This document shows, piece after piece, positions 33,520-53,631 of a stretch of 64,000 bases of DNA. The stretch comes from Thermosporothrix hazakensis (GTDB taxonomy: Bacteria > Chloroflexota > Ktedonobacteria > Ktedonobacterales > Ktedonobacteraceae). Within the stretch, counting starts at the first letter, position 1. Every line of letters begins with the position of its first letter. A program made the translations under genes and the position numbers. The notes under the pieces are model-generated. The model made no database searches and was not told where the DNA came from. It saw nothing but the letters and a program-made list of their open reading frames with translations. The stretch lies in assembly GCF_003253565.1 (NCBI RefSeq), contig NZ_QKUF01000004.1, positions 1-64,000 on the forward strand. Direction: 5' to 3'.

Positions 33520-35325
33520 TTAGCGAGCTGCCGCCAGGCCAGAAATAGCGCCGCTGATCGCCTGAAGTCCCATTTGCAGTTCGGCCATCTGCATTGCCAT
33601 TGTCGTGCCCACCACCTGCCCCATCATCTGCCCTGCCTCAACCATGGTGCGCATCGGAGCCGTGCCAAGCAACGCCGGAATCCGGATGATAAACCAGAGA
33701 CAGGCGACACACATCAGGTCTACCCAGACATTCTCATCCAGGCCCCCAACCGTGTTGCTCGGCGTTCCACCAGCAAAGTGCATGACGTTTCCGAGCATCA
33801 CCTGCGTGATAATCAGGGCGACCACCATCACGAATTGCACCATCAACGTTGAGAGAAAGCCGCTCAGCCAGAGCCGGGTGACACCCTGCCCGACCTTACC
33901 CGGTAGCGCCCAGCATGCCAGCCCGATCGGTGCAGTAATCACGTACAGGTTGATAAAGAAGAGGCGTATAATCATTTGTGCCAGCAGCATCAGAGCAAGC
34001 AGCTTTCGCACAACGTGAAGGCCTTTTCCCAACTCTTGCAGGTTCTTAAAGAGATCCTCGAATCTCAAATTATCGGGCACAAGCTGAAAGCTCTTGCTGC
34101 TGGTTGCATCGTCCTGGCACGAATAGTAGAGTGTATCGCCAAACGAATTCACCTGCCGTGGCTCGCCCTGCACCAGCGAATTCATATACTGGCGCACACG
34201 GTACTCGCCACCGCCCTCCTGCTCACCCATCATCCGCTTGATATCTTTGGGGATATCCGTGCCATATGTATCCCAGGCATTGTCAACCAGTTGATCCCAT
34301 TCATCGAAATGGCGATACCAGGCCAGCGTATCGGTTGTATCTTTCAGCATCTCCATGTCGTTCTCAAGTTGCGGAAAGATCGCATCCAACTGCTTGCGTG
34401 TCGCGGCAGGGACTTTCTTCCCATCGTACTCATAAAGCAGCTCGACACGCCGATGCAGGATACTGTAGACGCCCCCCTCTTTGTAGTTGCCGTCGTCATC
34501 AAAGAGCACCCAGCGCCCATATTGATCGAAACTGGTCTTACTCCAGGTGCAGGACTTCCCCTTCATCTTTTGCAAGGTCTCATCAGTATTCGGAGCATGC
34601 CAGAGCTTGGCGGCCTGCTCGGGCGTCATACTCTTGTACTTATCTTTTCCCTCTTTCTCAAAATGGTCCTTGTCTTCCTCGTTATAGGTGGGGAACAGAA
34701 CATGCAGCTCCATCGTCTTCTCATCGCCGGTACCAAAACCGGAGCCAGACCGTTGGATCGAGTTTGAATACTCGGCAACGGTATAGATCCCGCCGGTCAG
34801 CGAGTTCTGAAGATCGACCAGCACGGTAATAAAGAAGAGGCTGACATGAGCTGCGATCAGGGCCAGCAGAATGCCCGGCAACTCCTCGACCGCCTTCGCA
34901 AAGCGGAAGGTGATCCCCGCGAAAATAACCCGGATGCCGGTCATGATGATTGCTACAACTGCCAGTCCATCGACAACCGTTATCATTGCCGTCCAGAGCG
35001 AGCGAATGTTCTGGTTTCCAACGGTACTTTCGGGCGGCGTATAGAAAAAGAGCAGGTTCTGCTTCGCTATAGGATTCTGGATTTTGGGATTCTCGTTTTT
35101 ATAAGCAGACACATAGAGATGCCCCGCAAGACAGGATTGTTTCAGCTCGTCTGGCAACTCCTGGCACTCCTCAGCGGTTGCCTGAGGACTCTGAGTCGCC
35201 GCCTGTACATGCTGTTGAGCGGGCAAAGCAAGGAGCGTTCCGGCAAGAGCCAGCGCGATCAGCAATACAGTCGCGATATCGAACGCTCGCAGTATCTTTC
35301 GAGCAGTCTGAGTTTTTCGCTTCAT
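33520..35325 (-). CDS. VirB6/TrbL-like polytopic membrane protein, paralog 1
   Basis: 601 residues from the ATG at 35323-35325. The protein has a signal-like first helix, PKIQNPIAKQNLLFFYTPPE, two helices (with GIRVIFAGITFRFAKAVEELPG), a long variable hydrophilic part of about 240 residues, and then a conserved block of about five helices (VIRLFFINLYVITAPIGLACWALPGK, VQFVMVVALIITQVMLG, LWFIIRIPALLGTAPMRTMVEAGQMM). This is the topology of VirB6/TrbL channel proteins. Two paralogs precede it in the operon with the same blocks but unrelated middles. Probably part of the inner-membrane pore. Confidence 0.75.
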   Translation of the reverse strand: MKRKTQTARKILRAFDIATVLLIALALAGTLLALPAQQHVQAATQSPQATAEECQELPDELKQSCLAGHLYVSAYKNENPKIQNPIAKQNLLFFYTPPESTVGNQNIRSLWTAMITVVDGLAVVAIIMTGIRVIFAGITFRFAKAVEELPGILLALIAAHVSLFFITVLVDLQNSLTGGIYTVAEYSNSIQRSGSGFGTGDEKTMELHVLFPTYNEEDKDHFEKEGKDKYKSMTPEQAAKLWHAPNTDETLQKMKGKSCTWSKTSFDQYGRWVLFDDDGNYKEGGVYSILHRRVELLYEYDGKKVPAATRKQLDAIFPQLENDMEMLKDTTDTLAWYRHFDEWDQLVDNAWDTYGTDIPKDIKRMMGEQEGGGEYRVRQYMNSLVQGEPRQVNSFGDTLYYSCQDDATSSKSFQLVPDNLRFEDLFKNLQELGKGLHVVRKLLALMLLAQMIIRLFFINLYVITAPIGLACWALPGKVGQGVTRLWLSGFLSTLMVQFVMVVALIITQVMLGNVMHFAGGTPSNTVGGLDENVWVDLMCVACLWFIIRIPALLGTAPMRTMVEAGQMMGQVVGTTMAMQMAELQMGLQAISGAISGLAAAR

Positions 35326-35398
35326 AAGAAATATAACCCCCTCGTACCGCCCTATCACTTATAGTAAAAAAGTTCTCGTTCCCTGTATAGGGAGAGAG

Positions 35399-35405
35399 AG
35401 GGACA
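35399..35405 (-). promoter_or_regulatory. TGTCCCT element, copy c
   Basis: On the minus strand AATTTGTCCCTCTCTCTCCC lies about 75 bases before the paralog 1 start, between two genes of the operon, and may mark an internal promoter. A short palindrome CCCT-GTAT-AGGG (35381-35392) is next to it. Confidence 0.4.
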
Positions 35406-35433
35406 AATTGACCTATCCCTTTCGCATACAGAC

Positions 35434-37176
35434 CTAGCGCACAAACGCGAGTCCGGCTGAGACCAGCGCCGATACGCCCTGTACAATCATCTGGAATTGC
35501 TGGATCTGCATCATCACGGTCGCGCCCACTACCTGCGTTACCATCTGCCCGGCTGAGACCATCGTGCGCATCGGGGCAGTCCCGAGCAGCGACGGAATGC
35601 GGATGATAAACCAGATACAGGCAATGCGCATCAGGTCGAACCAGACATCCGACGAGAGACCACCCACCGGCGTTCCCGGCGTGGCACTGGCGAAATCCGA
35701 GACGACGTTAAAGATCGCCTGTAACACGATCAAGGCAACCACCATCAAGAACTGCACAAAAACCGTTGAGAGAAACCCCTTCATCCATTCCAACGTGAGC
35801 GATTGCCCGATGCGGCCAGGCAAGGCCCAGCAGCCAATACCAAGCGGAGCCAGCACAATATAGAGATTGATAAAGAAGAGGCGCACCACCATCTGTACCA
35901 GCAGGATCAAGGTCAGCACCTTCACGATCATCTTGACCCCTTTTCCCAGATCCTGCAGGTTCTTGAACAGATCAGTAAAGTTCAGATCTGTCTCAAAGAG
36001 GCCTTTCTGCTCGACCGGCTTCGGTGTCTGGCAGGTAAAAGTAATGATATCCCCCCGCTTGCCCGGCATCGACTCAATATAGGTGCCGTTGGACTTGAAC
36101 AGCAGCGACATGGTCAATTTCACCCGGTTCGCATGGTCGGCGTTCACGTCCTGGCGCTCATAGTTCAGATACTTCTTTTCATAGCCCGATAGCTCCTCAT
36201 CAAACTTCAACCAATCAGTATGCCAGCGCAGAGCGTCATTCTCAATCTGGTTGACATCGGTCTCGATCTGGCTGACCATCTGATGCAGACGCGCAATCAC
36301 CGAGGCAGGCACATTCTCCCCCAGTTCCTCAATGGATTCAGCCCGCATCGAGATATCGAAGGCGATGTTCCCATCTTCGGGCTTGCCCTTCTTGCCAAAC
36401 AGGTTCTTGCGGCTCTCGACATCGAAATTGATCTCTTTGGCCTTACACGTCCAATCCTTCTCGAAGTGGCTCAGATCGCTCTGCGTCAACGACTTACCGT
36501 CTGGTGCCCCATATATTTTCCCGTCGGGTCCACCCCATGCCGACGCCACCGCAAAGGGATCTGTAAGCAACTTCTTCTCAAACTCGCTCTCTTTACCGGG
36601 ATCACCCGTCGGGAAGAAAACATGCAGCTTCTCCTCCTTTGTCTTGGACTTGCCATACTTGACTGGCCCCTCAATGTTGATCTCCTTCGCAGAGAGGTAG
36701 AGCGAGTGCGTCAGCATATTCCCGAGCCCGATCGCCGACGTCATAAAGGTCAGGCTGATATGGGCCACAATCAGCGCCAGCAGCACGCCGGGTAATGTCT
36801 CGACCGCATCAGCAAAACGGAAGACGCTTCCCACCAGCATCACGCGAATTCCGTTTAACATGATGGAAATGACGAGGAACATGTCCACCAGGGCCAGCAC
36901 CCCGCCCCATAGGAGCCGTACCGTCGGATTATCAACCGTGATGTCGTACGGTGTGAAAAAGAACAGCGGGTTATCGGGAAAGGGGTTCTGTATCTTGCTA
37001 TCGTTTCCGGTATAGGAGCTTGACGAGACCGACGTTCCTTCCAGACAGGCCTTCGTTGCCTTTCCCTCGCTACAGGGATCCGCGGCCTTCGCGGGCGTCG
37101 TCAGGCAGAAGAGCGCGAACAGCCCATGCAAGCACAACAGCAGTAGTGCCAGGCGCAACCAGCGTCGTTTCTTCAT
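35434..37176 (-). CDS. VirB6/TrbL-like polytopic membrane protein, paralog 2
   Basis: 580 residues from the ATG at 37174-37176, which has GGGGAGG 8 bases before it; a longer frame upstream overlaps the previous gene. A cleavable signal (LALLLLCLHGLFALFCLTTPAKAAD) is followed by KIQNPFPDNPLFFFTPYDIT, then GIRVMLVGSVFRFADAVETLPGVLL and, after a hydrophilic variable stretch of about 230 residues, the shared C-terminal block (VVRLFFINLYIVLAPLGIGCWALPGR, FIIRIPSLLGTAPMRTMVSAGQM). It belongs to the same operon and is a clear duplicate of the genes on each side. The variable part should face the outside or the periplasm-like wall zone. Confidence 0.75.
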   Translation of the reverse strand: MKKRRWLRLALLLLCLHGLFALFCLTTPAKAADPCSEGKATKACLEGTSVSSSSYTGNDSKIQNPFPDNPLFFFTPYDITVDNPTVRLLWGGVLALVDMFLVISIMLNGIRVMLVGSVFRFADAVETLPGVLLALIVAHISLTFMTSAIGLGNMLTHSLYLSAKEINIEGPVKYGKSKTKEEKLHVFFPTGDPGKESEFEKKLLTDPFAVASAWGGPDGKIYGAPDGKSLTQSDLSHFEKDWTCKAKEINFDVESRKNLFGKKGKPEDGNIAFDISMRAESIEELGENVPASVIARLHQMVSQIETDVNQIENDALRWHTDWLKFDEELSGYEKKYLNYERQDVNADHANRVKLTMSLLFKSNGTYIESMPGKRGDIITFTCQTPKPVEQKGLFETDLNFTDLFKNLQDLGKGVKMIVKVLTLILLVQMVVRLFFINLYIVLAPLGIGCWALPGRIGQSLTLEWMKGFLSTVFVQFLMVVALIVLQAIFNVVSDFASATPGTPVGGLSSDVWFDLMRIACIWFIIRIPSLLGTAPMRTMVSAGQMVTQVVGATVMMQIQQFQMIVQGVSALVSAGLAFVR

Positions 37177-37189
37177 CGTTGCGCCTCCC

Positions 37190-38569
37190 CTATCGTGCGA
37201 ATCGTGCAAGCGGTAGCAGACCTGCCCCCGCCTGGAACACCATCTGCGCCTGCGTAAACTGTGAGACAATGGTTGTGCTTACCACCTGCGCCATCATCTG
37301 ACCACTCTCAACCATCGTACGCATGGGAGCCGTGCCCAGTAGCCCCGGAATCCGAATGATAAACCAGAGACAGCACACGTGAATCAGATCAACCAGTGTA
37401 TTCACCGGGAGCCCCCCCGGACCGGTCATGCCATCGTCACCAGAAGACTTGAGCGGCGTCGCCACAACTTGCAGGACCGCGCCAAGCATAATCTGCGTGA
37501 CGATCAGAGCCAGCACCATCACAAACTGCACCAGCGCCGTCGAAATAAAGCCCTTGAGCCATAGCGAGGTAACCCCCTGCCCGCTTCGGCCCGGTAAGGC
37601 CCAACACGCGATAGCCAGCGGCGCGAACACGATATAGAGGTTAATAAAGAAGAGACGTATCACCATCTGAATCAGCAGCATCAGCGCCAGCACCTGAATA
37701 ATCAAGGGCAGAGCATCACCGAGCTTTTGCAGATTATCGAAGAGATTGGTAAAATTCAGATCCTCAGGCACAAGCCGGAAATTCGTCATCATGCTGTCGC
37801 CAGGGATCGGGCATTTCTTGAAGATCTGGGTGTAATCATGCACGTAGAGGATGCGATCCGGCTCGCAGCGATTCTTAAAGCTCTGTGGCAGCTTGTCATA
37901 GGTATCACGATCCCTGCCAGCCGCGCCATTCGCGGAGATCTGGAGATCCTTCCATTCCTCGCGCCGAAAGTCGGTCTGTACCAGTTTGTCGTTCGCCCAG
38001 GTATAGGCATGATTGACCAGAACATTATTCAGGCCGATAAACAGCGAAATAAAGGTGAGACTGACGTGCACCACGATCAGGGAGAGCAGCACACCGGGAG
38101 ACTCTTCAATCGCCTTGCTGAACTTGAACACCGTGCCCGCGATCATCATGCGTAAACCATGCATCATGAATACGAGCACAAGGAAAATATCTACAATTGC
38201 CAGCATCGCTCCCCAGAGCAACCGCACAATCTCATTGTCGACGGTGTAGCGATAGGGCGTGTAGAAAAAGAGGGCACTGTTGTCGTCAATCGGGTTCTGA
38301 ATCTTCTTCCCGCCGCCCTTATAATCTTGCTCCAGGCAGTCGCCCGCCTGCACCAGCTCCGCAGGGCAAGCATGTGGGGCAAGGACAGCCCCCACCTGCA
38401 TCAAGCTCTGAGGCCGCTGCTGTAGCGTCTCGATTGCGTGCAGCATCATATCTGGTCGGCACACGATCAGCAGAAGAGAGAGCACGATCAGGGCCACCAG
38501 GGTGATAAAAATATCAAGAAAAGAGAGCCACGAGCGCTTGCGTGGCCTTATCAGAAACAGGTCTCTCAT
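37190..38569 (-). CDS. VirB6/TrbL-like polytopic membrane protein, paralog 3
   Basis: 459 residues from the ATG at 38567-38569 (AGAGGAAG before it), first gene of the leftward secretion operon. Same plan as the next two genes: KKIQNPIDDNSALFFYTPYR, GLRMMIAGTVFKFSKAIEESPGVLL, a shorter variable region of about 110 residues, then VIRLFFINLYIVFAPLAIACWALPGR and FIIRIPGLLGTAPMRTMVESGQMM. The gap to paralog 2 is 13 bases. It is the shortest copy, mainly because its central part is reduced. Probable inner-membrane channel component of the type IV system. Confidence 0.75.
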   Translation of the reverse strand: MRDLFLIRPRKRSWLSFLDIFITLVALIVLSLLLIVCRPDMMLHAIETLQQRPQSLMQVGAVLAPHACPAELVQAGDCLEQDYKGGGKKIQNPIDDNSALFFYTPYRYTVDNEIVRLLWGAMLAIVDIFLVLVFMMHGLRMMIAGTVFKFSKAIEESPGVLLSLIVVHVSLTFISLFIGLNNVLVNHAYTWANDKLVQTDFRREEWKDLQISANGAAGRDRDTYDKLPQSFKNRCEPDRILYVHDYTQIFKKCPIPGDSMMTNFRLVPEDLNFTNLFDNLQKLGDALPLIIQVLALMLLIQMVIRLFFINLYIVFAPLAIACWALPGRSGQGVTSLWLKGFISTALVQFVMVLALIVTQIMLGAVLQVVATPLKSSGDDGMTGPGGLPVNTLVDLIHVCCLWFIIRIPGLLGTAPMRTMVESGQMMAQVVSTTIVSQFTQAQMVFQAGAGLLPLARFAR

Positions 38570-38620
38570 ACGCTTCCTCTTTCTGCTCTCAATGATAGGC
38601 AAGAAGAACCGCCCACGTAC

Positions 38621-38660
38621 AGGAGGAAGCAGGGACAAAAATATGTCCCTCTTTCCTCCT
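38621..38660. promoter_or_regulatory. TGTCCCT dyad, copy d, in the divergent T4SS promoter region
   Basis: AGGGACA-N6-TGTCCCT (38631-38650) is a perfect dyad, extended on each side, after two unpaired bases, by AGGAGGAA (38621-38628) and TTCCTCCT (38653-38660). This near-palindrome of 40 bases sits between the leftward VirB6-VirB4 operon and the rightward HerA operon. It is a strong candidate operator that controls both. Confidence 0.6.
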
Positions 38661-38721
38661 GGAAAGCAACCGGCCCCTTATGGTACGCTCAGAAGCAAGC
38701 CACTACAGAAAGGTGCACCTT

Positions 38722-41700
38722 ATGATTCCAGGGTTTGACGTCGAATCACTGAACAAACTGGGAAAACTGATCGCAGGCCTCGAACGCTACAATCTGGAAG
38801 GTGCGTCACCCGAACCATTCGACCCGGCAGACCTGCTTGAAGAGAGCGAGCAGGCTTTCTTTCATATTCACGGCCTGGGGAATTTCTGGAAAGCGCCCCA
38901 CGAGTTTATTCACCGTCTGGTTGATCTGGTCGTTAGCGCCCACCATCAGCGCCATACCGACCTCACCTTTCTCCTTCTGGGAACGCAACAACAGATCGCA
39001 CTCTATTTGTCGCTAGGCAGCGAAAAAGCGACGCGCAGCGCACTGGAAGGGCTCTTTCCGGGCATTTCCTTTTCTCCGGCCTCGCCAAAAGATCTGCTTC
39101 ACAGGTTACGGGGACATCTGCGCGTTCAGGGAGTCGTTACCGGCATCCCGAGCCGCCGCGCCTTCACCCCCAACCATCTCAAAGAAGATGAGCAACCACA
39201 CAGCCCCCCGGAGCGCACGCCACTTGAGCGTGTCATTCGTGGGATGGATGGCGCGACCTGGGCCTACATCGTTCAGGCGCACCCCAGGCCCCGACAAAAG
39301 GTGATCGAGGAGCGCATGCGCACCATTGACCTGCTGACGCAGATCACCACACGCTCACGGGTGCAGTGGTCATCAACCAGACAGGATTCGCAGCAAGTCA
39401 CCAGCGTTGAATCTGGCGGACAGAGCAAGAGCTTTAGCGGCGACATGGTGAACTACCGGGCGCAATACCTGCATAAATTGCTTGAACACGAGCTCGCTCG
39501 CCTTGATGAGTCCTCGGCTACCGGTCAGTGGATCGTGCGTACCTACTTTGGAGCCAGCGACCAGGAAGACGCACAGCGTCTCAGCTCGCTCCTGCTTGGC
39601 ACGCTTGCCGGAGCCGATTCACGCCCGGAGCCGCTGCGAGTCTCACTCTGCGAAAAGTTCGGCGCACCGCTGGAAAGCTTCCATACCTTCCTGTCATCGC
39701 AGGAGCTTGCCACGCTGATTCAGCTTCCGCGCGAGGAGTTCCCGGGCTATGCGCTGCACGATCACGTCACCTTCGACGTTGATTTTCAGGCACAGACCGG
39801 CGTCTCTCTGCCCCTGGGTATGATCCTGCAACAACAGAAAAAGACCCATGTCACCTACGATATCAACATCGATGCCTTAAGCAAGCATGCCGTCATCGTT
39901 GGTGTCACGGGCAGCGGCAAGACCACGACCGTCATGAACCTGCTTGACCATCTCACAGGGGCTCGCAAGCCCTTTCTGGTCATCGAGCCCGCGAAAACGG
40001 AGTACCGCGCTCTCAAAAATGCGCAGGCTGACCGCGCCGATGTACGGGTCTTTACGCTTGGGAACGAGATGCTCGCCCCGTTCCGCCTCAATCCCTTCGA
40101 GTTTGAGACGACCGACGAACCGGGCAGCGGCTCGCTCATGGCACACATCGACTTTCTGAAAGCCGTTTTTACCGCCGCCTTCCCGATGTATGCGCCATTG
40201 CCGCAAATCATCGAAACGGCCATGTATGAGATCTATGAAGAGAAGGGATGGGATATCACCAGCAGCACAAACCGGCGGCTCTCCAACTGGGCCGACCGCC
40301 ATCGCTACCCGATCTTCCCAACTCTTGCCGATCTCGATTACAAGACCCAGGAGGTCGCGGACCGGCTCCGCTACAATCCCGAAGCCGACGCGCATATCAA
40401 GGCATCACTGAAGGCGCGGATTGGCTCGCTCCGTATCGGGGCAAAGGGCCTGATGCTCGACACCGCCCGCAGCTATCCAATGCGTGCCCTGCTCTCGCTG
40501 CCCACAATTCTCGAACTGGAGAGCATCGGCAATGATGAAGAGAAAACGTTCCTGATGGGCCTGCTGCTGGCTCGCATCTACGAATACCGGCGGCTACAGG
40601 CAAGCAGCGGTGCGGAAAATGAGCTGACCGGACGCACACTGCAACATCTGATCGTCATCGAAGAGGCACACCGCCTGCTTCAGAATACCGGTCCCGTCAT
40701 GCCGACCAACCCGGATTCTGCCAACCCGCGCGCACAGGCAGTCGAGGTCTTCACAAACATGCTGGCCGAGGTTCGTGCCTACGGTCAGGGCATCCTCGTC
40801 GCAGAGCAGATTCCGAGCAAGCTTGCGCCCGACGTGCTGAAAAACACCAATCTCAAAATCGTGCACCGTCTGATTGCGCAGGATGACCGCCAGAGTATCG
40901 GACACACCATGAACCTGAATGAGGCACAACAGACCCACCTCGGGATTCTGCCTCCGGGAACGGCGGCCGTCTATGCCGAAGGGGCCGACCACGCCTATCT
41001 TGTGCGTATGGACAACTACAAACGGCAGCTTGAGCCGCTGCGAGATCCCGCCCTCAAGCAGGACAGCCGCTCATATGCGCGCGTCTCGGCCTATCATGCA
41101 ATTCTCGATTTCGACGCGTACAAGATCCCACGGACCTCGATCGGGAGCCCGCCGCCCATGCTCTATCAGCTTGCAGGCAAGCTCTTTGAGACGACACAGA
41201 AAAAGGGGTTCTGGGCTCGCTTGCTCCTGAGCATCCTTGCCAACCCTGCCGAAACGCTCAACGTCCTGTTCCAGCTTGAGGAGAGCATTGAGGCCGAAAC
41301 CTCATCGCTTGCGCCCTCGCTGCATGACGTGCTCTTCCGCCTGCTGATCGTGCGCGGCTGCTTTGAACTGCTCCAGCAACGAGGCGCACAGCTTGGCTGG
41401 ACCTACCCGCAAACCGATGAGTTGCGCCGCCAGCTCACAAGCGGTCTGCTCGCGCTCTACCGTTCGCAGCAGCTCGCCAACGAGGACCCCGACAAGGAAG
41501 GCCGCCAGGAGATTCGCCGGGAACTCGACTCCGCAGAGCAACATCTGAATCGCTTCCTGCAAGCCTATCTTGAACTGACACAGCGGAGACGCGGTCCGTT
41601 CCGTGGATGCGCCATCTGTCCGGCAAAATGCCTCTACCGACGCGATGTCCAGACACTTTTAGAGCCACGCGACCGGGAATGGATCGGAGGCGAGTTGACC

Positions 41701-41985
41701 GCTGCGACCTACGAGACGGAGGAAGAGCGCTATCAGGCTGCCTTTACCAGTGCTCAGATACTTGTGAAGGGCTGGCTGGCCGGCGGCAACGAAGAGATTC
41801 TCCCCTGGGTCAGCTATTGTACCGTGCTGCACACGATCGAGGGCAGTGATCTGAGCGGCTATGAGCGCATAGTCACCGCCGACGCCTTCCAGCGCTACAT
41901 CTCGGCGCAAACTGCCGCAAACACCGAAGAGGCAGAAGAACAGCCAGAATGGCCCGATTCGGAACTTGCGCTCACCAACGAGTAG
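38722..41985 (+). CDS. HerA/VirB4-superfamily ATPase (DUF87-like)
   Basis: 1087 residues from the ATG at 38722 (AAAGGTG 8 bases before it). Residues 1-370 are an uncharacterised N-terminal region. The HerA-like motor follows: Walker A VIVGVTGSGKTTT (about 390-402), the VIEPAKTEYRAL motif, Walker B HLIVIEEAHRLL (about 641-652), and the GQGILVAEQIPSKL and sensor segments. The C-terminal third is helical, with a CAICPAKC motif (about residue 970) that could bind zinc or an iron-sulfur cluster. Such hexameric ATPases move DNA or proteins. It is first in a rightward operon opposite the secretion operon and may feed substrates to it. Confidence 0.85.
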   Translation: MIPGFDVESLNKLGKLIAGLERYNLEGASPEPFDPADLLEESEQAFFHIHGLGNFWKAPHEFIHRLVDLVVSAHHQRHTDLTFLLLGTQQQIALYLSLGSEKATRSALEGLFPGISFSPASPKDLLHRLRGHLRVQGVVTGIPSRRAFTPNHLKEDEQPHSPPERTPLERVIRGMDGATWAYIVQAHPRPRQKVIEERMRTIDLLTQITTRSRVQWSSTRQDSQQVTSVESGGQSKSFSGDMVNYRAQYLHKLLEHELARLDESSATGQWIVRTYFGASDQEDAQRLSSLLLGTLAGADSRPEPLRVSLCEKFGAPLESFHTFLSSQELATLIQLPREEFPGYALHDHVTFDVDFQAQTGVSLPLGMILQQQKKTHVTYDINIDALSKHAVIVGVTGSGKTTTVMNLLDHLTGARKPFLVIEPAKTEYRALKNAQADRADVRVFTLGNEMLAPFRLNPFEFETTDEPGSGSLMAHIDFLKAVFTAAFPMYAPLPQIIETAMYEIYEEKGWDITSSTNRRLSNWADRHRYPIFPTLADLDYKTQEVADRLRYNPEADAHIKASLKARIGSLRIGAKGLMLDTARSYPMRALLSLPTILELESIGNDEEKTFLMGLLLARIYEYRRLQASSGAENELTGRTLQHLIVIEEAHRLLQNTGPVMPTNPDSANPRAQAVEVFTNMLAEVRAYGQGILVAEQIPSKLAPDVLKNTNLKIVHRLIAQDDRQSIGHTMNLNEAQQTHLGILPPGTAAVYAEGADHAYLVRMDNYKRQLEPLRDPALKQDSRSYARVSAYHAILDFDAYKIPRTSIGSPPPMLYQLAGKLFETTQKKGFWARLLLSILANPAETLNVLFQLEESIEAETSSLAPSLHDVLFRLLIVRGCFELLQQRGAQLGWTYPQTDELRRQLTSGLLALYRSQQLANEDPDKEGRQEIRRELDSAEQHLNRFLQAYLELTQRRRGPFRGCAICPAKCLYRRDVQTLLEPRDREWIGGELTAATYETEEERYQAAFTSAQILVKGWLAGGNEEILPWVSYCTVLHTIEGSDLSGYERIVTADAFQRYISAQTAANTEEAEEQPEWPDSELALTNE

Positions 41986-44573: not shown

Positions 44574-44698
44574 AACAACCGGATACGGTACAGAAGAAAG
44601 AGCCCTTGCTGACCTTGTGCCTCTGGCTACTTATCATCCTCTGGCTGGCCTGCATGGGCTCATTCGCCTTGCTTCCTTATCTGCTTCCGGACCTTTAA
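44570..44698 (+). CDS. 42-residue single-pass membrane protein
   Basis: Short gene not found by length-limited searches. The ATG at 44570 overlaps the methyltransferase stop (ATGA) and has GAAAGGAG 5 bases upstream. The product has a Lys/Gln-rich N-terminus (MKQPDTVQKKEP) and one hydrophobic helix (LCLWLLIILWLACMGSFALL), ending YLLPDL. Translational coupling and a strong ribosome site make it a real gene. The role is unknown, perhaps a small subunit of the membrane complex. Its last four bases overlap the end of the convergent VirD4-like gene. Confidence 0.7.
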   Translation: MKQPDTVQKKEPLLTLCLWLLIILWLACMGSFALLPYLLPDL

Positions 44699-47520
44699 GC
44701 CCCTTCCTCAGAGGGGCTTTCCTCTTCTTCGCCAGCCGCAACCAGTGCCTCGGCCTTCTTTTTGCCTCCTTTGCCACGTTTCCGGCGCTTGCGCTTCTTT
44801 TCCACTGCTGCTTCTTCCTGCGGCTCCATGTCTTCAGCAACCGGCTCCGTTACTGGCTCCGTGGCCGGGGGAAGCAGAATCACAGGCGACTCAACAGCTT
44901 CAGGCTGGCGAGCAGGTTCACTCGGCTGTCTGGCCTTCTTCTTCTTCTCGGGCTGCACAGGAGCCATTCGAATACCGCGCACCATCGCCTCGCGTAGCAT
45001 CTCATCAACCAGTTCAACCGAGGAGGCATAGCGAACGCGGCTCCGCGTCCGGATGCTCTCCGCCTGCTCAACATTTCGTATATCGAGTGGCGTGACCTTC
45101 AGCGAGAAGGTGGGCTGGCGCTTCTGCAACGCCGAGAGCCTGACATAGCAGGTATGCATATCAAGGTTCAGGATGTCATCGCGCTCCACACCAAGCTCGC
45201 GATACATCGTCTCGGCATCCTGTGCCGACAGATTGAAGATAACAAGCTGCTTGACGTTCGCCAGAACGGTTGGCAATAGCAACGGATCGAGGTTCTGCAA
45301 ATACTCAAGCGACTGTGTGGCCAGAAAGAAGGTCGCACCATACTTACGCAGCTCCGCCAGGGCACCATAATCAACACCCGCGAGTGTCTGGAATTCGTCA
45401 AGGATGATCGGATAGCGTACCCGCTCTATCTCTTGTTTGATGCCTTGCTCCTCAAGCGTAATCTGGAAGAGGCCAAGCATGCTCGCCCCGAGCAGGGCCG
45501 CGACATCGGCTCCCACAACGCCCTTCGCCAGCTTAAAGAGAATAATCTTGCGCTCCTCAATCATCTGTGTGAAGTTGATGGTCGAGACAGGCTGCCCGAT
45601 AATCCGCCGGGCGATCACGCTTTCAAACTTCGCGACCTTTGTGATAACGGGGTTAATCACCTCGCGCTGCTGCATCAGCGTGAGCGGCTCATAGTACTCG
45701 CGCCACCAGCGATGCAGGTAATCATCATCAATCTGCTGTAGAATCGCATGGCAGAAGTTCTCATTGGTCAGAATCGGCAACACATCGAGCAGTGTATATT
45801 GCTGACGCGGCCCTTCGAGCGGATCGCGGGCTACCAGCACGCGATTTGCCTCAAAGAGCGTGCGCAGGCTCATCTCGAAGGCATTTTCCATCCGTGGGCC
45901 CCAACTCGTCGCCCAGATATGCGCCAGTGTTTTGAGCAGGTCAGAGATTGCTTTATCACGTCCCCTGCCAAGCGTCACATCCAGCGGATTCAGGCCCACA
46001 GCAGCATCAGGGTCAGAGAGGTCGATAAAGACAACATCTTCAGCGCGGTATTCCGGCACGATATGCAGAATATGCTCACACAGGTCTCCATGCGGATCGA
46101 TGACCATCAGCCCGCCTAGCTTCATCGCATCATGCGCGATATGCTCCATAAACGTGCTTTTGCCCTCACCCGATTTACCGGCAATCAGGGTATGCTGCGT
46201 GAAGAACGTGGAATCAAGCCCGAAGGGAAGCCGATAGCCGCCATGCTCCGAGTAGCCAACCGGACGCAGATGCGCCACCTGGCGGGCCAGGTCCGGCGGA
46301 AGCAACATGGTGCGGGCGCGTCGGTGCTCGACCAATGAGAGTTCAGGAAGCGCGTCGGCCTGTGGTAAATGCCAGAGCGTCGCGAGCGCATCGACCGTCA
46401 GCAGGTGCTGAGAGCGCGCTACATCCCGATGCCAGCGTTGAAACAGGCGACCGGGCCGCCTGATTCGCTTCGGTTGAAAATAGGCACCATTCGCCCGATC
46501 AAACTGGCGATAGGCTGCGATCAGGCGTAGCAGCATATCCTTCCGTTCCCGCGTCTCTTTCCATCGCTCCTGCAAGCGCTTGAGCAAGCCACCATCGCCC
46601 AGATAACTGGCCTGTTTCGGTCCGATCACATAAAGGCGGAGCCGCGCTTTATACGCCATGCGCGAGACACGCTGAGCAACCATCCGGGTGTCATAGGCGC
46701 GTCGCTCTTTCAGCTTCCTCTGAATAAAGGCGCCCACGCCCCAGAACAGGAGAATCGCACAGAAGATGCCGCCTATCAACAGGATCAACTGAAGCACCTG
46801 CTCGGACGAGAGCTGAGGAACGCGACCAAGCAGCAAGTCAGTGAGCATATCCCAGGTCCACCCGGGAATCAACGGACGCATTGCCAGAAAGAGCAGCAAC
46901 AGCAGGCCAAGCGCTATGATAATCGGCGTACTGATTACAGCCTCACGGTTCAGCCTCATCTCGGCCATCTCGACCTGCATGGCGCGCCGTTCCTTGTCCA
47001 GCGGGCTTTCAATCGCCTTGCGGGCATCGCGGCGAGACCAGGCAGGAGGTGCCGGAACCAGCGCAAGCTGAGAGATCACACGCGTGTGTTCCGGGAGCCT
47101 GCTTAACGCCGCCAGCAGCCCTTGCAGTGGATCAAGATCCTCCTGCCGCTCCTGTTCCTGCTGCCATGTGCGTAGCGGCATGTATGTCTGACCGCCAGTG
47201 ACCAGCTCAACCGCAGTTACCGCTTCATAGGGCTCCAGCACAAACGGGTCCTCATGCGGATACAGGGGGCGCACTTCCATCTGCGGATACTGAGAGCGCA
47301 ACACCGCTTCTGCGTGGTCAAGCGCGGTCCGGGTCGTGGCTCGCAGAATAAAGCTTCGACGTTCGGCGGTCCCGGCAAGTTCCAGCGAGAGCGGATGCTT
47401 TTTATCGAGCACAAGGCTCTGCATGGCGGCTTCCAGCGCAACCTGCTCCTTCTTCAACCGGGACGGCGGAATCACGAGCAGCGCCAGTACCGCCTCATTC
47501 TGTTGTGGTTCCAGCATCAT
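44695..47520 (-). CDS. VirD4/TraG-like type IV coupling ATPase
   Basis: 941 residues from the ATG at 47518-47520; ATG at 47517 is also possible. The coupling protein brings substrates to the type IV channel. Residues about 1-200 form a soluble N-terminal domain, then two transmembrane helices (ISTPIIIALGLLLLLFLAM and ILLIGGIFCAILLFWGVG). The motor domain has Walker A TLIAGKSGEGKSTFM (about 441-455) and Walker B PIILDEFQTLAG (about 701-712). Between them lies MVIDPHGDLCEHIL, and later FFLATQSLEYL, as in the TraG/TraD family. Its tail is disordered, Lys/Arg-rich (KKRKRRKRGKGGKKK) and acidic at the very end, likely a substrate or DNA contact. It faces the HerA operon. Confidence 0.85.
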   Translation of the reverse strand: MMLEPQQNEAVLALLVIPPSRLKKEQVALEAAMQSLVLDKKHPLSLELAGTAERRSFILRATTRTALDHAEAVLRSQYPQMEVRPLYPHEDPFVLEPYEAVTAVELVTGGQTYMPLRTWQQEQERQEDLDPLQGLLAALSRLPEHTRVISQLALVPAPPAWSRRDARKAIESPLDKERRAMQVEMAEMRLNREAVISTPIIIALGLLLLLFLAMRPLIPGWTWDMLTDLLLGRVPQLSSEQVLQLILLIGGIFCAILLFWGVGAFIQRKLKERRAYDTRMVAQRVSRMAYKARLRLYVIGPKQASYLGDGGLLKRLQERWKETRERKDMLLRLIAAYRQFDRANGAYFQPKRIRRPGRLFQRWHRDVARSQHLLTVDALATLWHLPQADALPELSLVEHRRARTMLLPPDLARQVAHLRPVGYSEHGGYRLPFGLDSTFFTQHTLIAGKSGEGKSTFMEHIAHDAMKLGGLMVIDPHGDLCEHILHIVPEYRAEDVVFIDLSDPDAAVGLNPLDVTLGRGRDKAISDLLKTLAHIWATSWGPRMENAFEMSLRTLFEANRVLVARDPLEGPRQQYTLLDVLPILTNENFCHAILQQIDDDYLHRWWREYYEPLTLMQQREVINPVITKVAKFESVIARRIIGQPVSTINFTQMIEERKIILFKLAKGVVGADVAALLGASMLGLFQITLEEQGIKQEIERVRYPIILDEFQTLAGVDYGALAELRKYGATFFLATQSLEYLQNLDPLLLPTVLANVKQLVIFNLSAQDAETMYRELGVERDDILNLDMHTCYVRLSALQKRQPTFSLKVTPLDIRNVEQAESIRTRSRVRYASSVELVDEMLREAMVRGIRMAPVQPEKKKKARQPSEPARQPEAVESPVILLPPATEPVTEPVAEDMEPQEEAAVEKKRKRRKRGKGGKKKAEALVAAGEEEESPSEEGA

Positions 47521-47651
47521 CGTAGCATACTCTTCCTTCAATGGCGTGAACGGATTTCCTGAACTGGTGGCTCACGAGCGGTCACCCCTTGAACAGGGCC
47601 CGCTTCCAACGATACAATGAGAGCAGATACCCGGAAAGAAAGTGACCCACC

Positions 47652-50578: not shown

Positions 50579-52621
50579 ATGGTAGATAAGCTTCCGATAG
50601 CACAAGTATCCCCCGAAACCCTCCTTGTAGAGCGTTTCCACATCACCACAGGCTTTCACGAAGGGCAACTGCACATCATCAAGAAATTGTTGCAGCGCAA
50701 ACGTGTGCTCGCAATCCAGAAAACCGGATGGGGAAAATCACTCTGCTATCAAATGGCAAGCCTCTATTATCCTCACCTCACCATCGTCTTCTCTCCGCTT
50801 AAAGCTCTGATGCGCGATCAGTGCACGCGTTGCAATGAGAGATACCATATACCGGCTGCAATTGTCAGTTCTGATTTCAGCGTGGAAGAGAATGAGATGA
50901 CACTACAGCAGGCAGTTGCAGGGAAGCTTAAACTTCTCTTCATAGCACCCGAACGTCTGGAAAACACGCTCTGGCGTGAATACGTACAGAAAATGCGTAT
51001 CAGCCTGGTAGTGATCGATGAAGCGCATTGTATTTCAACCTGGGGGCATGATTTTCGGCCAGATTACCGCCGCATTCGTCACTTGATCAGCGCCCTCCCG
51101 GCACAAACACCACTCCTTGCTTTAACCGCCACCGCAAACCCACGGGTAGAGCAAGATATCCTGGAACAGATGGGGACAGGCACTGAAGTGATACGAGGCT
51201 CAATGAAACGCCCGAATCTCTATCTCAACGTGATTCCGCTCTCCGATGATAGCGAAAAACTGAGCTATCTCGCTGCCCTCATTCCCCATCTTCCTGGTAC
51301 CGGAATTCTATATACGGCGACACAAAAGGATGCAGAAATGACTGCCGACTTTCTTCGTAGACAAAACATTGATGCACATCACTACCATGCCAGGCTGGAA
51401 GACACACGCAGGCAGGAAATCGAAAACAACCTTCAACAGAATCACCATAAAGTGATCTGCTCAACCAATGCGCTTGGTATGGGCATTGATAAGCCCGACC
51501 TTCGTTTCATTATTCACTACCATTTTCCTGCTTCTCCCATTCATTATTATCAGGAAATTGGCCGTGCCGGTCGCGATGGTCTGCCATCATACTGTTTTCT
51601 GCTCTATGACGAGAAAGATCGAAAAATCCAGGAGCATTTTATCAAAAGAGCAAAACCAGAAAGTCGCTGTTACAGAGAGGTGATGACCGCTCTTCAGCGC
51701 TCATCTCATGGGATGACCGAAAAAGAGCTACTATTAAGCCTTTCGCTCTCTACGAATGTTCTTCGTACGGTACTGAAAGATCTACGAGAGCAGGGATATG
51801 TGCGAAAGGAGAAGAGCCGTCGTTATAGCTCCATCCAATATACCAATCACATCGACTTCTCCTTTTATGACACAATTGCAGAGCAAAAGAAGCAGGAACT
51901 ACAAGAAATGATCCAGTATGCAAAGTCAGACACATGCTACATGACCTATCTGACCAGTTATCTGGGCGACCCGGATCAAAGCCCCTGCGGAATATGTGGT
52001 GCATGCAGGCCTGAGGCTTATCAGATCATTACTCCCTCGTCTCAACTCAAACAGGCAGCCCAACACTTCTTGCAATATGAGTATCTCCCGCATATCGATA
52101 GCAAGGGCAAGCAAGGGAAAAAACATGAGGAAGGTTGGTCGCTTTCGTATCATGGAAATACTGAAATTGGGCGGCTGGTACGTGGTAGCAAATATGAAAA
52201 CATGGGGCCATTCCCGGATATCCTGGTACAGCGGGCGGCAGAAATATTACGTGAACGCTACCCACTGCAACAGATAGATTATATTGTCAGCATTCCCCCT
52301 ACGAAAAGTGGGAATTTGGTTGAAACATTTGCACAACGTGTTGCAAATATGATATCTATAACATATGTTCCTACTTTGACCAAAAACCGTGTGACAAAAC
52401 AACAAAAGGATTGCCTGAATAGCAAACAAAAGGAATACAATGTCAAAGGGTCGTTTACTGTTAGCGCTCCCGAACAGGTACGCAATCGCAGGATTCTCCT
52501 GATAGATGACATTTATGATTCAGGGTACACGATACGAGCAGCGACAGAAGCACTCATAGAGGCGGGAGCAGTAGCGGTCTATCCCTTTACCATTACGCGC
52601 ACGCTAGCAGCAGACCAGTAA
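50579..52621 (+). CDS. RecQ-like helicase fused to ComF-like phosphoribosyltransferase
   Basis: 680 residues. Residues 1-350 are a RecQ superfamily 2 helicase: Walker A TGWGKS (Lys53), DEAH at 147 in VVIDEAHCISTWGHDFRPDYR, LTATANPRV, and motif VI in QEIGRAGRDG. The zinc-binding segment follows (SDTCYMTYLTSYLGDPDQSPCGICGAC). Instead of an HRDC domain the C-terminus (about 490-680) is a type I phosphoribosyltransferase like ComF, with the PRPP motif RRILLIDDIYDSGYT at about 637-651. So a 3'-5' DNA unwinding motor is joined to a nucleotide-binding PRTase. A DprA-like gene follows 11 bases on. The unit is lower in GC than its neighbours. Confidence 0.88.
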   Translation: MVDKLPIAQVSPETLLVERFHITTGFHEGQLHIIKKLLQRKRVLAIQKTGWGKSLCYQMASLYYPHLTIVFSPLKALMRDQCTRCNERYHIPAAIVSSDFSVEENEMTLQQAVAGKLKLLFIAPERLENTLWREYVQKMRISLVVIDEAHCISTWGHDFRPDYRRIRHLISALPAQTPLLALTATANPRVEQDILEQMGTGTEVIRGSMKRPNLYLNVIPLSDDSEKLSYLAALIPHLPGTGILYTATQKDAEMTADFLRRQNIDAHHYHARLEDTRRQEIENNLQQNHHKVICSTNALGMGIDKPDLRFIIHYHFPASPIHYYQEIGRAGRDGLPSYCFLLYDEKDRKIQEHFIKRAKPESRCYREVMTALQRSSHGMTEKELLLSLSLSTNVLRTVLKDLREQGYVRKEKSRRYSSIQYTNHIDFSFYDTIAEQKKQELQEMIQYAKSDTCYMTYLTSYLGDPDQSPCGICGACRPEAYQIITPSSQLKQAAQHFLQYEYLPHIDSKGKQGKKHEEGWSLSYHGNTEIGRLVRGSKYENMGPFPDILVQRAAEILRERYPLQQIDYIVSIPPTKSGNLVETFAQRVANMISITYVPTLTKNRVTKQQKDCLNSKQKEYNVKGSFTVSAPEQVRNRRILLIDDIYDSGYTIRAATEALIEAGAVAVYPFTITRTLAADQ

Positions 52622-52632
52622 GGAGAAATAGT

Positions 52633-53631
52633 ATGAACGCACGCGAACAAGCCTGTTGGTTCGCATTAGTATTTCAAAGCAAGTTACCTATCAGGGTCAT
52701 CAATACGATACTGGTCACATGGTGCAAGCAAGCAGGCAGAACTATTGAAGACCTGTTTGCTGCCGAGGCGCAGGAATGGGCTCGGGTGTGCCATCTCACA
52801 ACCGAAGGGCTTCAAAAGCTCGAGCAGGCCCGAGAAACCATCGTTGCTCAGTCCTTTCTTGTAGAGCAGCTTCAACATAGCGGCATTTCCGTAATCAGCG
52901 TGCTGGACGAACAGTATCCAGAAACGCTGAAACTGGCTCTTGATCGCAACCACATCCCTCCGCTCCTTTTTTATGCAGGACAACTGGATATTCTGAAGCG
53001 GCAGACAGTTGCCATTATCGGTTCACGTAATGCCAACGCCGAAAGCCTGCACTTTACCAGACTGGTAGCTCGCTACCTTGCAGAAAAAAACACAAATGTG
53101 ATCAGCGGGTTTGCTCGTGGCGTAGATCGAACCGCCTATGAAGGGGCTACAGAAGCAGATGGACCTACTACTATCGTACTTCCCCAGGGAATTCGGAAGC
53201 TGAGCAGGACACAGTTACGCGAACTACAACCACGTATCGAGGCAGGGAAAGTGCTCCTTCTCAGTCAGTTTCACCCGGATGCCCCCTGGCTCGTCAGCCG
53301 TGCAATGGAGCGAAATAAGGTTGTCACCGGGCTGGCACAAATCGTTATTGTCGCGGAGTCAGATACCAAAGGCGGTACATGGGAGGGCGCGAATGGAGCT
53401 CTCCATCAAAAACGCCGGGTCTATGTGCGGGCAACAAAGGATAGCTCTATCCCTGCCGGAAATGCCGCTCTGCTAGAAAAGGGGGCAAGGCCGCTCTCCT
53501 GGTCTCCGTCAGACGAAGATCAGGCGTTTGCACCCTTACTTGAAAAAGCCCGAAAGGTACAAGAGCAACAACGCAGCATGCCTCCTTCTCCCAGACAGCT
53601 CTCGCTTCTGGCAATCGAGTATAAACCTTGA
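52633..53631 (+). CDS. DprA/Smf-like Rossmann-fold protein
   Basis: 332 residues from an ATG with AAGGAG 8 bases before it. Residues 1-120 include a helical, SAM/HhH-like part. The Rossmann domain spans about 125-300: PPLLFYAGQLDILKRQTVAIIGSRNAN, VISGFARGVDRTAYEGA, IVIVAESDTKGGTWEGANGALHQKR, all DprA hallmarks. Classic DprA loads RecA on incoming single-stranded DNA in natural transformation. The motif GKVLLLSQFHPDA is also usual. Here the protein is linked to a RecQ-PRTase fusion, not to competence genes, which fits a specialised, possibly defensive role like ShosA. It ends the two-gene unit with a terminator. Confidence 0.85.
   Translation: MNAREQACWFALVFQSKLPIRVINTILVTWCKQAGRTIEDLFAAEAQEWARVCHLTTEGLQKLEQARETIVAQSFLVEQLQHSGISVISVLDEQYPETLKLALDRNHIPPLLFYAGQLDILKRQTVAIIGSRNANAESLHFTRLVARYLAEKNTNVISGFARGVDRTAYEGATEADGPTTIVLPQGIRKLSRTQLRELQPRIEAGKVLLLSQFHPDAPWLVSRAMERNKVVTGLAQIVIVAESDTKGGTWEGANGALHQKRRVYVRATKDSSIPAGNAALLEKGARPLSWSPSDEDQAFAPLLEKARKVQEQQRSMPPSPRQLSLLAIEYKP

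Follow-up and report, generated by a model that had tools for sequence, protein, structure and literature searches.

PsyrTA was found as a toxin-antitoxin pair by Sberro et al. in 2013, as related in later papers (PMC8790059, PMC9122126), and RqlH-RqlI of Escherichia coli F11 is PsyrTA under another name (Russell and Mulvey 2015, PMC4670107). RqlH toxicity triggers the SOS response and filamentation and requires the active site of its phosphoribosyltransferase (PRTase), in which D663 is needed for toxicity: the D663A substitution abolishes the PRTase-dependent effect, and K49A and D148A alter helicase behavior (PMC4670107). RqlI binds RqlH and relieves its toxicity (PMC4670107). A 2017 survey pointed out a helicase-PRTase fusion coupled to DprA and its resemblance to ComFA/ComFC/DprA (PMC5512222). 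RqlH of M. smegmatis (Ordonez et al. 2012, as cited in PMC5512222) likewise joins a RecQ-like helicase to a PRTase but is presented there as a stand-alone protein, without an RqlI/PsyrA partner, and partnerless PsyrT/RqlH in Actinomycetota and haloarchaea has already been published (PMC4670107).

Here, we analyzed a stretch of 64,000 nucleotides from Thermosporothrix hazakensis (contig NZ_QKUF01000004.1, positions 1 to 64,000), hereafter the window, in which an original prediction had read two adjoining genes as a candidate defense system. The view that they form a toxin-antitoxin-like, defense-associated pair related to ShosTA, and not a competence operon, is upheld. The helicase-PRTase architecture with a DprA-like partner is known and no new candidate system: it is PsyrTA in PADLOC, was studied as RqlHI, and was noted in the 2017 survey.

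Results

A divergent PsyrTA pair

Both genes lie on the + strand. psyrT (rqlH; 50579..52621) encodes a predicted toxin of 680 aa, a RecQ-family helicase with a C-terminal PRTase, and psyrA (rqlI; 52633..53631) encodes a predicted antitoxin of 332 aa, a DprA-like Rossmann protein of the short form. Open reading frames and Pfam domains confirm the predicted layout, with 11 bases between the genes and an AAGGAG ribosome-binding sequence overlapping the psyrT stop codon. In PsyrT, Pfam places DEAD at residues 29-191, Helicase_C at 227-334, RecQ_Zn_bind at 434-477, and Pribosyltran (PF00156) at 583-664, the last within a PRTase domain of about residues 510-676 (52106..52606, + strand). PsyrA carries DNA_processg_A (residues 80-287) and lacks the C-terminal winged helix of DprA.

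The PADLOC PsyrT profile matches the first protein end to end (residues 13-679; 774 bits, 2.3e-233), and the PsyrA profile matches the second (263 bits, 1.3e-78). PADLOC, Pfam, and the AlphaFold model agree on a RecQ-type helicase and a C-terminal PRTase in one protein, and the DprA-like partner with the PsyrA match follows directly downstream. Judged by these sequence matches, the locus is a PsyrTA/RqlHI toxin-antitoxin pair, a kind already catalogued in PADLOC. It shares with described members the helicase-PRTase domain order, the T-then-A gene order, the tight spacing, the catalytic residues, and the DprA-like partner, and differs in the short form of its PsyrA, without winged helix and with the tail QLSLL. 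By percent identity it is a divergent member: its PsyrT shares 53-58% identity with the proteins of other family genera and about 32-37% with homologs elsewhere.

The residues on which RqlH function depends are kept. Helicase motif I, TGWGKS (residues 49-54; 50723..50740, + strand), and motif II, DEAH (residues 147-150; 51017..51028, + strand), are invariant in 15 homologs, K53 and D147 corresponding to RqlH K49 and D148 (PMC4670107). The PRPP-binding motif LLIDDIYDSGYT (PsyrT residues 640-651; 52496..52531, + strand) is conserved in both alignments made, of 15 and 25 homologs: D643 and D644 are invariant in both, and D647, which aligns with RqlH D663, is invariant in one and nearly so in the other. 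The AlphaFold model of PsyrT (pLDDT 90.5) has RecQ catalytic cores as its best structural matches, and that of PsyrA (pLDDT 89.7) is nearest among solved structures to E. coli ShosA (8zva), ahead of competence DprA. Since catalytic residues and architecture are kept, we infer that PRTase toxicity, SOS induction, and neutralization carry over from the homologs to this copy.

Comparison with related systems places ShosTA as a cousin of the pair and not as its family. ShosTA also combines a PRTase toxin with a DprA-like antitoxin, and ShosA (8zva, 9vzo; Rousset et al. 2022, PMC9122126) is the best structural match of PsyrA, but ShosT has no helicase. Membership in ShosTA, with its stand-alone ShosT PRTase, was considered and rejected: here the PRTase is fused to a helicase and matches ShosT weakly (29 bits, residues 560-674), and the second protein matches ShosA (138 bits) less well than PsyrA. 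ShosTA itself is rare in the phylum (2/301 genomes at a threshold of 1e-25).

The folds are also common to canonical DprA/Smf and ComF. Describing the PRTase as ComF-like holds for distant kinship but goes no further, TIGR00201 comF scoring 34 bits against a cut-off of 234; PsyrA, too, scores below the dprA cut-off. Canonical DprA differs in having a winged helix and no clamp motif (see below). The original prediction reported no other competence gene, which is true locally; elsewhere in the genome, away from the pair, comEC is found at C4:174978 and a housekeeping dprA, which encodes a winged-helix domain, at C16:108683. With both proteins below the cut-offs and these genes elsewhere, assignment to a competence module was rejected.

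DprA-like proteins also adjoin PRTases fused to HAD domains, without a helicase (loci L245 to L248), and several of these carry Q-based, clamp-like terminal motifs. The DprA gene mostly comes first in such pairs, and the PRTase gene comes first in L248. At L245:44-3068, a DprA-like protein with an N-terminal QLSMF, a HAD-PRTase, and a trypsin-like protein form a three-gene unit, and similar DprA and HAD-PRTase pairs are found on plasmids of Rhizobium, Piscirickettsia, Priestia, and Bermanella. On an E. coli plasmid (L249:1977-4777), a DprA-like gene lies upstream of a very large RecQ-family gene (34711-39387 of the record), the reverse of the PsyrTA order. A second RecQ-like helicase on the same contig as the pair (G000:C5:137603-138974) is split into two open reading frames in different frames.

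The AT-rich promoter and the terminator that had been proposed for the pair were not recovered: scans found no sigma-70-like site 5' and no terminator-like site 3' of it, and site totals were no higher than in shuffled sequence. No Rfam family matched at the locus. The GC content of the pair is indeed lower (47.1% and 52.4% versus 53.5% in the window), as the original prediction had it when suggesting transfer. However, the pair is AT-richer than its neighbors in relatives too, at a conserved site, so that low GC is typical of the pair and is weak evidence for transfer; as proof of recent transfer, it was rejected.

Distribution and co-inheritance

Mapping the pair across the family, we found psyrT in 7 of 29 genomes, that of the window included, with no competence genes as neighbors, a pattern opposite to the universal, competence-linked one that would have spoken against a defense role. 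A contig search with a single-protein query gave no matches, and an alignment query was used instead. In the phylum sample, matches reached the PRTase end of the profile in 35 of 400 genomes, and other matches were partial or, like plain RecQ, stopped around position 480-560. Wherever the contig of a relative allows the check, psyrA is the next gene after psyrT, and among 118 loci from many phyla, the two genes adjoin in 69. Those lacking an adjoining psyrA are mostly from Actinomycetota and haloarchaea, with some contig ends; since many PsyrT of these two groups are without PsyrA, toxicity is not universal.

Four relatives (G006, G008, G010, and G001) carry the pair with meaB on one side and an XPB-type helicase gene on the other, although the G001 locus is split over two contigs and the XPB gene of G010 was matched in its first part only. 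The same site is without the pair in G000, G007, G012, G016, G017, and others. G009 retains a psyrA remnant, the C-terminal third, without psyrT, and psyrT of G003 is broken, which is no strong evidence because the contig contains Ns. Patchy presence, meaB-XPB sites that are empty in several genera, and the G009 remnant together fit a dispensable toxin-antitoxin module. The surrounding order is a family-wide gene string (L024, L025, L026, L029, and L128) of rnc, an N6 methyltransferase gene, a B12-binding mutase subunit gene, meaB, an optional insert, and the XPB-type helicase gene; the slot after meaB is filled by PsyrTA, by a psyrA remnant, or by other genes, or is left empty, and with such varied content behaves like a hotspot of insertion or loss.

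In the genome of the window, meaB and the XPB gene lie about 200 bp apart on contig C16 and the pair lies on contig C5, so it probably moved or was regained, and this is the only concrete sign of movement; these two histories look alike here because the flanks of the pair are not syntenic in relatives. For the same reason, no empty site matching the window's own position could be shown in them. Trees of PsyrT and PsyrA agree (distance correlation r = 0.91; 0/500 permutations) and both group the window with its family, an agreement that could partly reflect shared host ancestry.

Defense context

The expectation of defense genes nearby is borne out for homologs and not for the window. Homologs on plasmids occur within defense operons, of type I restriction genes in E. 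coli and of BREX genes in Acinetobacter, whereas no defense island was recognized around the window's pair, where kinase and HerA-like ATPase matches are generic. Two large HerA/type IV coupling-like ATPases (38680-41985 and 44695-47541) are encoded near a Ser/Thr kinase gene in the window.

A candidate sliding-clamp motif in the PsyrA tail

The feature that appears to be new, and seems unreported, is a clamp-type tail on PsyrA. The protein ends in RQLSLLAIEYKP, and the tail peptide SPRQLSLLAIEYKP carries QLSLL (residues 322-326; 53596..53610, + strand), a candidate beta-sliding-clamp-binding motif, in a stretch that AlphaFold models with low confidence, as disordered. A C-terminal Q-L-x-L-F is the consensus for binding the beta sliding clamp, typical of replication and repair proteins, though short and weak (PMC4549789); QLSLL in a disordered terminus is of the kind that clamp clients carry.

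The strict pattern Qxx[LM]F, which does not count the window's own QLSLL, was found within 15 residues of the C-terminus in 15 of 50 nonredundant PsyrA (representatives clustered at 60% identity), whereas 1000 shuffles averaged 0.2 and never exceeded 3. With stricter clustering at 45%, it is found in 6/20; among short-form PsyrA, 6 of 11 carry it, and 8 of 11 match a looser pattern. The motif is absent from the C-termini of PsyrT (0/20) and from canonical DprA of the phylum (0/21), and control patterns on PsyrA tails, namely, the reversed motif and ten substitutions of Q, gave no matches. This test was not blind, having been prompted by tails seen in the first alignment and the locus list.

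Within the family, the window shares QLSLL with G006, G010, and the G009 remnant; G001 has QMSLF and G008 a weaker QLSRLL. Relatives show QLSLL, QMSLF, QLGLF, QLSMF, QMTLF, QMNLF, QRSLF, and similar forms, of which the canonical QMSLF, QLGLF, QLSMF, QMTLF, and QMNLF occur across unrelated phyla; a few tails are variants such as QLSLP or QLRLA. Most long-form PsyrA, those with a winged helix, lack the motif at the C-terminus, and some have a candidate in the linker. As an anecdote only, the DprA of HAD-PRTase pairs shows QLSMF at its N-terminus in L245 and QLNMF at its C-terminus in L248. A literature search, mostly without subscription journals, returned no paper linking DprA-like antitoxins to the clamp.

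Discussion

We consider it quite probable that the locus is a PsyrTA/RqlHI toxin-antitoxin pair in which PsyrA restrains a PRTase toxin and may dock on the clamp through its tail. PsyrT would be a RecQ-type DNA translocase that does its harm through the PRTase, with the use of PRPP, and PsyrA would be the DprA-like partner that binds PsyrT and holds back its toxicity. Through QLSLL, PsyrA may be held on the beta sliding clamp at replication forks and bring PsyrT with it. If the fork or the state of the clamp became abnormal, as in phage replication or on stalled or damaged DNA, the PRTase would be freed or activated, and growth would stop. A clamp-docking tag on the antitoxin suggests the site where the pair keeps watch. 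E. coli RqlI 1-320, without the winged helix, still neutralizes RqlH (PMC4670107), so the tail may be dispensable for the antitoxin role itself.

From the tail sequences, we infer that the complex is held at forks by the binding of PsyrA to the clamp. The broader proposal, toward which we lean slightly, counts PsyrA among the clamp clients, possibly together with other DprA-like proteins that partner PRTase toxins, the C-terminal peptide parking the toxin where the replisome senses and decides its release. Alternatively, the motif may be real and its partner something other than the clamp, since the case for the clamp is one of sequence, resting on so short a consensus, and a few tails diverge from it. 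We find this doubtful, because Q and the hydrophobic ends are needed position specifically, the canonical forms recur in unrelated phyla, and the motif lies in a disordered C-terminus.

What the pair does for its host can be read in several ways. An anti-phage role is plausible by analogy but unproven: homologs lie in defense operons, and the related ShosTA gives protection from T7 and lambda (PMC9122126), whereas no phage protection was detected from one E. coli PsyrTA in the assay used, and its expression slowed growth (PMC12409345). That missing protection, together with patchiness and plasmid-borne homologs, would suit a purely selfish addiction module without anti-phage benefit. This we rate as rather unlikely, given a chromosomal position common to several genera, homologs inside BREX and restriction operons, and the protection by ShosTA. 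The authors of the RqlHI study favored a cooperative DNA function (PMC4670107), and the stable place beside the XPB-type helicase gene in several relatives and a motif typical of replication and repair proteins would likewise suit a DNA-maintenance module, in which the helicase and its DprA-like partner work together on DNA that is damaged or stalled and toxicity arises only from the loss of either one. Yet the pair is absent from most genera of the family, no fitness cost was detected, in vitro or in mice, when rqlH and rqlI were both deleted (PMC4670107), and homologs are nested in restriction and BREX operons; we hold this account to be possible but improbable. The DprA domain, the ComF-like PRTase, and the resemblance noted in PMC5512222 could also suggest a DNA uptake module of the ComFA/ComFC/DprA type for natural transformation. 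That this is so seems very improbable indeed: comEC and canonical dprA are elsewhere in the genome, the PRTase falls far under the comF cut-off, PsyrA is without the winged helix of DprA and resembles ShosA most closely in structure, and the pair is patchy within the family.

Thus, on the reading that we prefer, of a toxin-antitoxin pair docked through its antitoxin, the conserved clamp-type tail suggests that DprA-PRTase systems may do their sensing at the replication clamp, and it lends itself to a simple point-mutation test. Such a tail would also set PsyrA-type DprA apart from competence DprA by a visible feature.
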